Origin: Truepera sp.
GTDB lineage: Bacteria; Deinococcota; Deinococci; Deinococcales; Trueperaceae
Direction of reading: 5' to 3'
Length of the DNA: 6,467 nt
NCBI GenBank assembly: GCA_018333775.1
Contig: JAGXSO010000059.1
Span: 1-6,467 of the forward strand
In this document: piece by piece, positions 1,735 through 6,467 of the stretch
Layout: each line of letters begins with the position of its first letter
Numbering within the stretch: position 1 is the stretch's first letter
Program-made: the position numbers and the translations under genes
Notes under the pieces: generated by a model
Seen by the model: only the letters and a program-made list of their open reading frames with translations
What the model was told of the DNA's origin: nothing
The model's database searches: none

Positions 1735-1764
1735 TTGACAGCCACACTACCACCTTGCTAGGAT
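1735..1764 (+). promoter_or_regulatory. Strong sigma-70-type promoter of the aspS leader
   Basis: A perfect -35 TTGACA (1735-1740) is followed by an 18-base spacer and TAGGAT (1759-1764), with an extended -10 TG at 1756-1757 (TGCTAGGAT). Transcription would begin near 1770-1773, leaving only a few bases before the leader ATG at 1776. It drives the leader ORF and aspS. Confidence 0.75.
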
Positions 1765-1775
1765 ACCCGGCAACG

Positions 1776-1829
1776 ATGCGCCGCCCCCGTCACGACAACG
1801 ATAATTCGCACTTAAGTCTCGGGGCCTAG
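1776..1829 (+). CDS. Putative aspS leader peptide with Asp-Asn-Asp-Asn control codons
   Basis: A 17-codon ORF, MRRPRHDNDNSHLSLGA, with stop TAG at 1827-1829. The run GAC AAC GAT AAT (1794-1805) encodes Asp-Asn-Asp-Asn, the two amino acids whose tRNAs a non-discriminating AspRS charges. There is no Shine-Dalgarno site, but the predicted transcript starts about five bases before the ATG, so translation would be essentially leaderless. The stop codon lies just after one strand of a predicted antiterminator (1816-1824), where a terminating ribosome would cover it. The sequence and pairings are seen directly; the function as a leader peptide is inferred by analogy with trp and his attenuators. It is too short for routine gene calling. 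Confidence 0.6.
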   Translation: MRRPRHDNDNSHLSLGA

Positions 1830-1879
1830 CCGTCAACTTTCCGCGCACCCCCGAGGCCCACCCTCGGGGATGTTCCTTT
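1783..1879 (+). promoter_or_regulatory. Putative ribosome-mediated attenuator of aspS
   Basis: Segments 1-4 can be drawn. Segment 1 (1783-1787, GCCCC) may pair weakly with 1821-1825. Segment 2 (1816-1824) pairs over 9 bp, one G-U, with segment 3 (1849-1857): the antiterminator. Segment 3 (1849-1856) alternatively pairs over 8 perfect bp with segment 4 (1862-1869): the terminator-like hairpin. The 2:3 and 3:4 stems share the same CCCCGAGG strand and exclude each other. A ribosome stalled on the Asp/Asn codons (1794-1805) would leave segment 2 mostly free; one reaching the TAG at 1827 would mask it. No T-box consensus is visible. Pairings are by eye, without energies. Confidence 0.55.
1849..1879 (+). 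terminator. Attenuator hairpin in the aspS leader
   Basis: CCCCGAGG (1849-1856) and CCTCGGGG (1862-1869) form 8 perfect pairs around a CCCAC loop. ATGTTCCTTT follows, a weak U-rich tract (six T in ten). The aspS ribosome binding site GGAG (1880-1883) comes straight after, so the hairpin could act on transcription, on translation, or both. Confidence 0.5.
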
Positions 1880-1888
1880 GGAGCCAAC

Positions 1889-3190: not shown

Positions 3191-3409
3191 ATGAGCGTAC
3201 CCTCGCGGTCTCTTGCGGAACTGGTAGAGGAGCTCCCACCCGACGCTCGAGCCCAGGTCCGAGATTTTGTCGAGTTTTTGCTGACCAAACGAAAGCGCAG
3301 CCAGGGCAGGACGCTGCGACAAAATTGGGCCGGTGCGCTGCGCGAGCACCGGGATCGCTATAGCTCGCTACAGTTGCAGAAGAAAGCCCTGGAGTGGCGG
3401 AGCAGTTAA
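3191..3409 (+). CDS. DUF2281-type antitoxin-like protein, 72 aa
   Basis: Small, charged protein of the DUF2281 type, usually found directly before a PIN-domain gene and regarded as the antitoxin of a VapBC-like pair. The N-terminal half, ELPPDARAQVRDFVEFLLTKRK (residues 14-35 region), is the family signature helix. A basic linker follows, then the conserved tail LRQNWAGALREHRD...SLQLQKKALEW that probably binds the toxin. ATG 3191 was chosen because a consensus -10 box ends seven bases before it; only a poor AAAGG lies further upstream, so translation is likely leaderless. The 3' end overlaps the PIN gene by 16 bases, implying coupled translation. Autoregulation of its promoter is common in such pairs but no operator palindrome stands out here. 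Family call is firm; antitoxin activity is inferred from context. Confidence 0.75.
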   Translation: MSVPSRSLAELVEELPPDARAQVRDFVEFLLTKRKRSQGRTLRQNWAGALREHRDRYSSLQLQKKALEWRSS

Positions 3410-3813
3410 GAGACGCATACCTGCTAGATACCAATATCTGGCTTGAGCGGTTTTTGGAGCAAGAGCGCTCAGCCGAGGTCGGACGATTCCTGGCTCAGAC
3501 GCCTTCGGAGCAGCTGTGCCTGACGGACTTTTCTTTTCACTCCATAGGCGTGGTGTTGACCAGGTTGCACCGCTGGGAGGCCCTGCTCCAGTTTGTTCAG
3601 GATGCGTTTATCGAAGGCGCGGTGGTGCTCATTAGCCTTCAACCGCAGGATATGGTCCGCCTAACCGAGGTGATGGGCGAGTTCAAGCTCGACTTTGACG
3701 ACGCTTATCAGTACCTGGCTGCCGAGAAATACGATGTTACACTGGTCAGTTTTGATGCGGACTTCGACCGGACAGGCCGGAGGAGGATGACCCCAGCCGA
3801 ACTTTTAAGCTAA
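3394..3813 (+). CDS. PIN-domain ribonuclease toxin-like protein, 139 aa
   Basis: PIN-fold nuclease, likely the toxin of a type II toxin-antitoxin pair, cleaving RNA with Mg2+ or Mn2+ held by clustered acidic residues. The first strand gives YLLDTNIWLE with Asp12, the hallmark. Further candidates are Glu28, Asp45 (LTDFS), Asp100/102/103 (LDFDDAYQ) and Asp121/Asp123 (SFDADFD). The acidic centre looks intact, so the protein may be active. GTG 3394 gives the full first strand and overlaps the antitoxin-like gene by 16 bases; no later start keeps Asp12. The next gene, fpg, is convergent. The RNA target cannot be told from sequence. The PIN assignment is strong; toxin role rests on the DUF2281 neighbour. 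Confidence 0.82.
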   Translation: MAEQLRDAYLLDTNIWLERFLEQERSAEVGRFLAQTPSEQLCLTDFSFHSIGVVLTRLHRWEALLQFVQDAFIEGAVVLISLQPQDMVRLTEVMGEFKLDFDDAYQYLAAEKYDVTLVSFDADFDRTGRRRMTPAELLS

Positions 3814-5612: not shown

Positions 5613-6467
5613 ACCTCGACTGCTAGGGGATGCGCTAGTGAAGCAAGAACCAAGCCAGGTTATGAGCGAGTTTACGACAGGTAGCAGCACGGATCGAGCG
5701 AAAGGAGTTAAGCTGGACCAGAGTGAGGTTACGGCTTCTTACCAAGGAGGAGAACACCGTCTCGATGGTCTTGTGCACCCAGGAAAAGGCAGACCCCCAC
5801 AGCTTAGGACGCTTGAAGCTGGCTTTGGGTTGGGCATGTATGCCACAGCCATGATAGTTTGCGTCGCCCAAGATAAAGGCGTTGCCCTCAGTAGTCATGC
5901 AGCGCCCCGCTTCCTGATCGGCGATATTGGCGGGAGCGATCAGACCCGAAGCGAGAGTGATTTCTGAAAGCGGCAGATCAGCCCTCGTTCATCCACGATG
6001 GCATGGAGCTTGAAGCCGTAGAACATGCCCATGCTGCTATAGCCCGATCTAGCTTCGGTCATGGCCCGTGGCTTCCGCCAGCGTGCTCCTTTGCAAATGG
6101 CAATAGCCTTGGAGTCGATGATGTAGCTGTCGAGTTCGCCTGCCAGCTTGGGAGCAAAGCGCAAGGCGAAATCGGCATACAGACGCTCGAGGTTGTTCTG
6201 GATGCGGTAGAAGCGGGTGCGGTCGGGAAGCTCGGGGAAGAGCGAACGGTACTCGATCTTAACGAAGTCGAAGCAATGGCCCAGGTAGCGCTGTTTGAGG
6301 AGTTCACCGACCAGCGCGATGGTCATGATCTCGCTATAGGTACCTTTCTGGTTAGCCATCCTCGGCAGCTGGCAGATGCCAGCACCTTCCAGCGCTTTGA
6401 GGTAATCATCGACAAACACATAGACCAGCGTGAAGAGGTCGGTCAAGGTAGACTGATTGAGGAAGAT
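5613..6467 (-). mobile_element. IS982-family insertion sequence remnant, cut by right window edge
   Basis: The segment is accounted for by an IS982-like transposase. Its downstream end should lie between the transposase stop (5635) and the point where homology to repeat copy A begins (about 5612). The upstream end lies beyond the window, so terminal inverted repeats and target duplications cannot be checked. The element appears to abut or interrupt repeat copy B. Confidence 0.6.
5635..6467 (-). pseudogene. IS982-family transposase, frameshifted and 5'-truncated by the window
   Basis: DDE transposase of the IS982 family. The frame is open from the right edge (IFLNQSTLTDLFTLVYVFVDD), so the start is probably a few codons outside; TTG 6446 is internal or alternative. 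The first catalytic Asp is in YIIDSKAIAI (codon 6114-6116), followed by GMFYGFKLHAIVDERGLICRF. The frame then runs to a premature TGA just after 5940. The rest continues in another frame: ASGLIAPANIADQEAG, LGDANYHG with the second Asp (5863-5865), and KTIETVFSSL with the catalytic Glu (5761-5763), ending at TAG 5635. One lost base in the TTT run (5967-5969) explains everything: a fourth T gives RFSEITLASGLIAPAN. The whole would be about 277 aa plus the missing start, near the family's usual 290. No classical slippery heptamer is seen, so decay is likelier than programmed frameshifting. Confidence 0.82.

Follow-up and report, generated by a model that had tools for sequence, protein, structure and literature searches.

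A candidate leader-peptide attenuator sensing asparagine charging upstream of aspS2 in the phylum Deinococcota

INTRODUCTION

Leader-peptide attenuators have been described in front of aminoacyl-tRNA synthetase genes, namely trpS and leuS in Streptomyces (PMC1262725) and, as a histidine leader, hisS/hisZ in bacilli (PMC2965389). The element described here resembles these and the trp/his attenuators, as presented in the excerpts of those sources, in having a short open reading frame (ORF) with runs of the relevant codons and an antiterminator and terminator that share a strand; like the synthetase cases, it has a synthetase gene downstream. Unlike classical attenuators, it carries Asn and Asp codons and precedes aspS2, which encodes the non-discriminating aspartyl-tRNA synthetase (AspRS2) of tRNA-dependent Asn synthesis. 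It also differs in being predicted to be near-leaderless, in occurring in Deinococcota, and in lacking a U-tract in part of the family.

Two other kinds of leader RNA are comparable. A cis-regulatory “tRNA synthetase leader” has been predicted before Shewanella aspS (PMC2659441). It too lies before aspS, but in another phylum, and the excerpt of that source names no Asp/Asn leader peptide and leaves the type of aspS unstated. T-boxes (RF00230) also sense tRNA charging in front of amino-acid genes, but they read uncharged tRNA directly, and none was matched at the locus studied here.

In D. radiodurans and T. thermophilus, AspRS2 and GatCAB make Asn on tRNA-Asn (PMC4206432), so an aspS2 gene that responds to Asn charging would be under end-product control. 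That work covers the same enzyme class and pathway, beside AsnRS, and its excerpt concerns enzymology, not aspS2 control. Leader-peptide attenuation is a known mechanism, synthetase genes included; in the literature searched (titles and the starts of abstracts, covering few subscription papers), we found no description of an attenuator of this type for aspS2 or for asparagine.

RESULTS

The aspS2 leader region of Truepera sp.

We analyzed a 6,467-nucleotide stretch of Truepera sp. DNA, called the window here. The original prediction placed a strong promoter, a 17-codon ORF with four successive Asp and Asn codons, and two alternative RNA pairings ahead of a gene for a non-discriminating AspRS, and all of these were recovered (Table 1). 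The promoter consists of TTGACA at 1735-1740 and TAGGAT at 1759-1764; one such promoter was found, against a mean of 0.1 in shuffled sequence. Strand 2 pairs with strand 3 over 9 bp, one of them G-U, and strand 3 forms 8 perfect bp with strand 4. Strand 2 begins 11 bases past the last Asn codon, with the caveat that it is still inside the leader ORF. Between the leader stop and aspS2 are 59 nt, which include the hairpin.

Table 1. Features of the aspS2 leader region, in window coordinates
Feature	Positions	Strand	Basis or comparison
Promoter: TTGACA, 18-nt spacer, extended -10 TGCTAGGAT	1735..1764	+	Same kind of box before relatives' leaders (demanded by the finder)
Leader ORF, 17 codons, MRRPRHDNDNSHLSLGA; AUG 11 nt past the -10 box	1776..1829	+	Leader ORFs in 97/100 regions
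Putative regulatory codons Asp-Asn-Asp-Asn	1794..1805	+	Enriched over 78 distinct leaders
Strand 2, putative antiterminator 5' arm, GTCTCGGGG, within the leader ORF	1816..1824	+	Pairs with 1849-1857
Strand 3, common to the putative antiterminator and terminator (the latter 1849-1856)	1849..1857	+	Sequence, comparison
Strand 4, 3' arm of the terminator-like hairpin	1862..1869	+	3:4 covariation in Trueperaceae
Weak T-rich tail ATGTTCCTTT, 6 T in 10, longest run 3	1870..1879	+	Sequence
GGAG, probable aspS2 ribosome-binding site, outside hairpin 3:4	1880..1883	+	Sequence, inference
aspS2, non-discriminating aspartate--tRNA(Asn) ligase, 425 aa	1889..3166	+	TIGR00458 and NF003483 over cut-off

On its own, the window makes a weak case. 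Its fold is unremarkable (z -1.10, with 29 of 200 shuffles equally good), and its single terminator-like site, against an expected mean of 0.4, is not clearly above chance. Rfam gave no match in the window up to E 5, T-box RF00230 included. Judged from the comparison with relatives, the layout is above chance.

The AspRS2 of the window scores 391.7 bits against TIGR00458 (cut-off 368.4) and 552.4 bits against NF003483 (cut-off 353), which bears out its predicted identity as non-discriminating. Its best PDB match is 1n9w/3kfu, “aspartyl-tRNA synthetase 2,” which we take to be the T. thermophilus enzyme; the AspRS2 of genome G094 matches 1n9w over its full length (873.8 bits). Among 111 Deinococcota genomes, 101 have a GatB match (98 of them over cut-off), 104 an AsnRS, and 36 an AsnB-like protein (30 of them over cut-off). 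A match of the discriminating AspRS1 type is also present in genomes such as G001. A search for AspRS2 on plasmids gave 18 records, with no Deinococcota among the organisms listed.

Other features of the window were noted in passing. Two small plus-strand genes behind aspS2, at 3191-3409 and 3394-3813, overlap and look like a toxin-antitoxin-like pair; the former has a VapB-type antitoxin match below cut-off (26.3 versus 60 bits), and the latter has no NCBIfam match. Near the window end, the minus strand at 5940-6446 has an IS982-type transposase match below cut-off (88.1 versus 130 bits). A short tandem repeat of ATACTCGA-like units, seen by eye, occupies 755-790 on the plus strand before a 3-hydroxyacyl-CoA dehydrogenase gene.

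Recurrence in Deinococcota

The genome searches covered the family (39 genomes) and the phylum (111 genomes, with the genus Deinococcus outside the DNA sample), and 99 of the 111 had an AspRS2 at E 1e-70 or better. Genome G042, above the cut-off with a match that begins at a contig end, was left out, and G016, below the cut-off, was added. This gave 100 aspS2 upstream regions, from the window and 99 Deinococcota genomes, whose AspRS2 proteins are 59-92% identical to that of the window. A leader ORF behind a promoter-like box and followed by a 6-18 bp hairpin was found in 97 of the 100. Absence from relatives had been named in advance as the outcome that would speak against the prediction; leaving the window aside, 96 of the 99 genomes have the Asp/Asn mini-ORF together with strand 2 and hairpin 3:4.

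Apart from two leaders placed by hand, all came from a finder that demanded a TTGAC...TA...T promoter, so recurrence of the promoter is not an independent count. Since, in addition, any GC-rich stretch yields some hairpin, we place the weight on codons, covariation, and geometry.

Among the first six Trueperaceae loci, the leader is visible in five, and only its end is present in the sixth (L003), near a contig end. The closest AspRS2, from Truepera sp. CROMO_A_191, is 92% identical to that of the window and came from a species-genome scan that added five more Trueperaceae loci. Contig ends clip two regions (L085 and L090), which keep the leader ends DDDNRGLGA and QDDNRERRKPGA before the stop. 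One region (L172, G043:C20) has no leader or hairpin, and its aspS2 directly follows another reading frame. The AspRS2 there is 61% identical to that of the window, and the locus represents one clear loss or a transferred gene. These three regions were excluded from the leader statistics, which cover 97 rows and 78 distinct leaders. The grouping rule sorted two regions that look Thermus-type (L129 and L180) into the group “other.” A 47-row alignment (A2) served for viewing only.

The leader peptide and its codons

Examples of the leader peptides are MTPFAARLQDDNRERWRPGA, MTPPRSPQRARRNNDRRRLGA (G037), MLRADNNL, MRPRLLNNG (G094), MRGLLNNDR, MKCFFNNSADDDN, and, in Deinobacterium chartae, MRAAARNFNDNNDRLRAA. 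All 78 distinct leaders contain an Asn or Asp codon, with Asn in 77 and Asp in 58. An adjacent Asp/Asn pair occurs in 69 of the 78; 200 nucleotide shuffles gave 1.9 on average and never more than 6. Asp and Asn make up 23.2% of leader codons versus 1.3% and 3.6% in the other two frames. Weak leaders are one with Asp only (L099) and four with a single Asn each (L093, L124, L132, and L171), and L093 also has a poor strand 2.

The two amino acids are distributed differently across the phylum. In Trueperaceae, Asp and Asn are each present in 29 of 30 distinct leaders; outside the family, Asn is present in 48 of 48 and Asp in 29 of 48. Because Asn is near-invariant (77/78 versus 58/78 for Asp), the sensed quantity is most likely Asn-tRNA-Asn.

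Codon choice within the leaders is also biased. In 27 Trueperaceae, Asn is written AAT in 29 of 41 leader codons versus 31 of 157 aspS2 codons (odds ratio 9.8, Fisher p 1.5e-9, relatedness ignored). Attenuation theory, in the part of the source we cite, expects choice among synonymous control codons (PMC1183508). The preference may also have a DNA-level cause, such as the frequent -10-like GATAAT inside the leader.

Predicted start of the leader transcript

The distance from the -10 box to the AUG is 7 nt in 24, 8 nt in 6, 9 nt in 10, 10 nt in 50, and 11 nt in 7 of the 97 leaders, from a finder that searched leader starts within 35 nt only. One leader (L152) starts with GTG. Leaderless mRNA with a TANNNT motif adjoining the ORF is reported to be common in the phylum (PMC12340547, in excerpt). 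With the AUG 7-11 nt past the -10 box, no more than a few bases from the expected start, and a TANNNT motif in place, the leader ORF is near-leaderless by its predicted transcription start.

The RNA switch and its geometry

The two pairings differ in how well they covary. In Trueperaceae, 3:4 covaries, with a paired fraction of 0.973 versus 0.896 for swaps and 0 of 2000 swaps equally good. Covariation of 2:3, which the check proposed with the original prediction had called for, is shown only in part. When the register was left free, contiguous 2:3 complementarity exceeded that of shuffled leaders in every set tested. Against swapped strand 3, it was higher for all 78 leaders (18.53 versus 16.61, maximum 17.41 in 200 swaps) and for the 30 Trueperaceae (19.40 versus 17.89, maximum 19.10). 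For the 48 others, where the strands are mostly G/C runs, it was not above swaps (17.99 versus 17.71, maximum 18.52). In a fixed register, 84.5% of cells in 33 rows were paired versus a shuffled mean of 82.2% (8 of 500 equally good; 6 of 500 for the covariation score), and slid partners reached at most 69.0%. Fixed-register covariation on the 16 distinct triplets was not significant (886 of 2000 swaps equally good). Two loci (L089 and L108) pair 2:3 in a shifted register.

Hairpin 3:4 is computed to be more stable than the 2:3 segment in 25/25 Thermus-like, 20/20 Meiothermus-like, 18/19 other, and 14/33 Trueperaceae regions. With 3:4 favored in this way, 2:3 would have to win by forming first.

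The stop codon had been predicted to lie where a terminating ribosome masks the antiterminator strand, and the geometry agrees in every leader that could be assessed. In Trueperaceae, the median gap between the end of strand 2 and the stop is 3 nt, and the median distance from the start of the Asp/Asn cluster to strand 2, downstream of it, is 23 nt. A ribosome is reported to cover up to 12 nt downstream of the stop codon (PMC4833913, in excerpt). With a 12-nt footprint counted from the A-site codon, each of the 71 assessable leaders would have 5 nt or more of strand 2 free during a stall and no more than 2 nt free once the ribosome is at the stop. With a 15-nt footprint, strand 2 would be freed on a stall in 67 of 71 and covered at the stop in all 71. 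The other 7 of the 78 leaders were excluded, four whose best stem was under 5 bp and three in which no Asp/Asn codon preceded the best stem; L117 and L161, at least, are artifacts of the stem picker. Trueperaceae and the other groups differ in where strand 2 lies but keep the same logic, which argues for function.

The terminator tail and the pause hairpin

The weak U-tract had been flagged as the main weakness of the prediction, and it is indeed weak in the window. At least 5 T in the 10 nt after the hairpin were found in 27 of 33 Trueperaceae (6 in the window), 20 of 20 Meiothermus-like, 16 of 19 other, and 1 of 25 Thermus-like regions. The Thermus-like genomes are a real exception, as none of the 25 has a T run of 4 or more; their hairpins are long and GC-rich, with a median of -28.9 kcal/mol.

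We found no support for a 1:2 pause hairpin, as 1:2 complementarity was not above swapped partners in any of the four groups. Among 300 swaps, those at least as good numbered 103 in Trueperaceae, 41 in other, 156 in Meiothermus-like, and 60 in Thermus-like regions. Theory holds ribosome-polymerase synchrony via a pause hairpin to be a strict requirement for hyper-sensitive attenuation, according to the excerpted source (PMC1183508), so this result counts against the full trp scheme. There may be a pause of another kind.

Searches beyond the locus

When run against the 39 genomes of the family, a Trueperaceae model of the element (R1), mostly a sequence model with 10 base pairs, matched ahead of aspS2 in 34, always with an E value of at most 1.5e-6. 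The remaining 5 show either no match to aspS2 or just a 3' portion of the gene. The training alignment held 32 of the 34 matched regions, and the two outside it, in G007 and G038, scored E 4.2e-20 and 9.1e-10. We also considered a wider regulon in Trueperaceae and rejected it. The single extra match below E 0.001 (G037:C1:935181-935284, E 1.3e-5) is, in its best-matching part, a terminator-like hairpin beside a short ORF, which we take to be rpsT.

Outside Deinococcota, 72 of 74 AspRS2 loci were scanned (L019 and L023, with no upstream DNA, were left out). A mechanical scan gave Asp/Asn leader candidates in five of the 72 (L013, L014, L028, L058, and L061). No T-box was found at the Rfam gathering threshold in 16 non-Deinococcota AspRS2 loci, 15 of them Clostridia-type and 1 from Acidobacteria.

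One of these candidates, in Dojkabacteria (L058:2764-3000, the same as L191), and a locus in a related genome (L192) have the Asn/Asp-rich leaders MNTKFDNNNNDNNCH and MNRIQLNNNNNDNYCL. The order at both is leader, a putative switch made of GGGAGT, ACTCCC, and GGGAGTTTTTT, then tRNA-Asn and aspS, with one extra short ORF before aspS in L192. Judging by its layout, this is possibly an Asn attenuator that evolved convergently and extends its control to a tRNA gene. In this class, 62 of 85 genomes had a match, 30 regions from them were scanned, and 24 of the 30 had no leader candidate. A T-box match precedes aspS in another Dojkabacteria locus (L194:2866-3048, minus strand) at E 3e-9 and 50.1 bits, under the gathering score of 93.

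Four further Dojkabacteria loci (L193, L195, L197, and L198) have, upstream of aspS, short ORFs with Asn-containing ends, such as NNNTNNPLF and NNANNATRQG. These ORFs extend into a hairpin, so placed that the stop codon falls within the loop or close to it. This is another geometry, partly read by eye and perhaps due to chance. A second synthetase-like match, 31% similar, lies just downstream of aspS in the Dojkabacteria genome G112.

DISCUSSION

We consider it highly probable that the element is a ribosome-mediated attenuator of aspS2 of the trp/his type, which senses mainly the charging of Asn-tRNA-Asn and, above all in Trueperaceae, takes Asp as a second input. The classical attenuation reading of the original prediction is supported by the recurrence in relatives, the codons, and the strand geometry. 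The ORF, its codons, the complementary strands, their geometry and conservation, and the pathway genes are read directly from the DNA. Transcription would begin at the leader AUG or a few bases upstream, and the resulting near-leaderless mRNA would be loaded with a ribosome. Under Asn (or Asp) shortage, this ribosome would stall at the Asp/Asn codons, leaving strand 2 free to pair with strand 3, so that hairpin 3:4 would not form and aspS2 would be transcribed. With a good supply, a ribosome at the stop would cover strand 2, and 3:4 would end transcription before aspS2. An Asn shortage would thus very likely raise aspS2 output.

Two variants keep the leader and modify what it does, and we regard both as possible but rather unlikely. 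One retains the same sensing and lets 3:4 act otherwise, at least in Thermus-like genomes and perhaps in the window with its weak U-tract, through termination that is U-tract-less or Rho-assisted once the ribosome leaves, through mRNA stability, or through aspS2 translation. The long, GC-rich Thermus-like hairpins, with no T run of at least 4 in 25 of 25 regions, fit this, as does an aspS2 start a few tens of bases past the hairpin. However, the T-rich tails of the Meiothermus-like (20/20), other (16/19), and Trueperaceae (27/33) regions are as in intrinsic terminators, and the probable ribosome-binding site of the window lies outside the hairpin. The second variant, which we doubt to about the same degree, gives Asp charging as much weight as Asn because AspRS2 charges both tRNAs. 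Trueperaceae leaders, which mostly have Asp and Asn together, and the alternating codons of the window agree with such dual sensing, but the leaders outside the family (Asn 48/48, Asp 29/48) do not, and a discriminating AspRS1-type match exists in genomes such as G001.

The remaining explanations dispense with sensing by a translating ribosome, and we rate all of them far lower. It is very unlikely that the mini-ORF merely boosts aspS2 translation by reinitiation, with the hairpin a passive 5'-UTR structure. Several groups, Deinococcus-Thermus among them, show an excess of leader genes spaced 10-11 bp from the structural gene, by the excerpt of the source (PMC4833913), but the window leader stops 59 nt before aspS2 with a hairpin between, and neither the Asp/Asn enrichment nor the conserved strand geometry would be expected. 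Still less probable is direct binding of the leader RNA by AspRS2 or tRNA-Asn, as a T-box or tRNA mimic. Other synthetase genes are controlled by direct leader-RNA binding, and a T-box match precedes aspS in one Dojkabacteria locus; against this, the window has no Rfam match up to E 5, and the conserved information consists of in-frame codons with synonymous variation. That the ORF and hairpin arose by chance in GC-rich intergenic sequence would be in keeping with the weak single-sequence tests, yet recurrence in 97 of 100 regions, with AspRS2 59-92% identical to that of the window, contradicts it, and we give this explanation almost no credence.

Beyond attenuation sensing mainly Asn-tRNA-Asn charging, we offer a broader proposal tentatively, with somewhat more doubt than confidence. 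The element may be an ancestral, phylum-wide, near-leaderless Asn-charging sensor on the entry enzyme of tRNA-dependent Asn synthesis. The Thermus hairpin without a U-tract would then act by a mode of termination or shut-off unusual for attenuators, and the same design would have arisen independently in Dojkabacteria, as an Asn/Asp-rich leader and putative terminator ahead of tRNA-Asn and aspS.

If the attenuation reading is right, the element would be a leader-peptide attenuator serving both asparagine and tRNA-dependent amino-acid synthesis. Model organisms of the phylum are the known cases of the tRNA-dependent Asn pathway beside AsnRS, and with aspS2 output tied to Asn-tRNA charging, the division of labor between AsnRS and AspRS2/GatCAB would become testable. 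The near-leaderless start poses the question of how ribosome loading would be timed with the polymerase in a system without a conserved pause hairpin. Finally, Thermus would be a test case for how a GC hairpin may act without a U-tract at high temperature.
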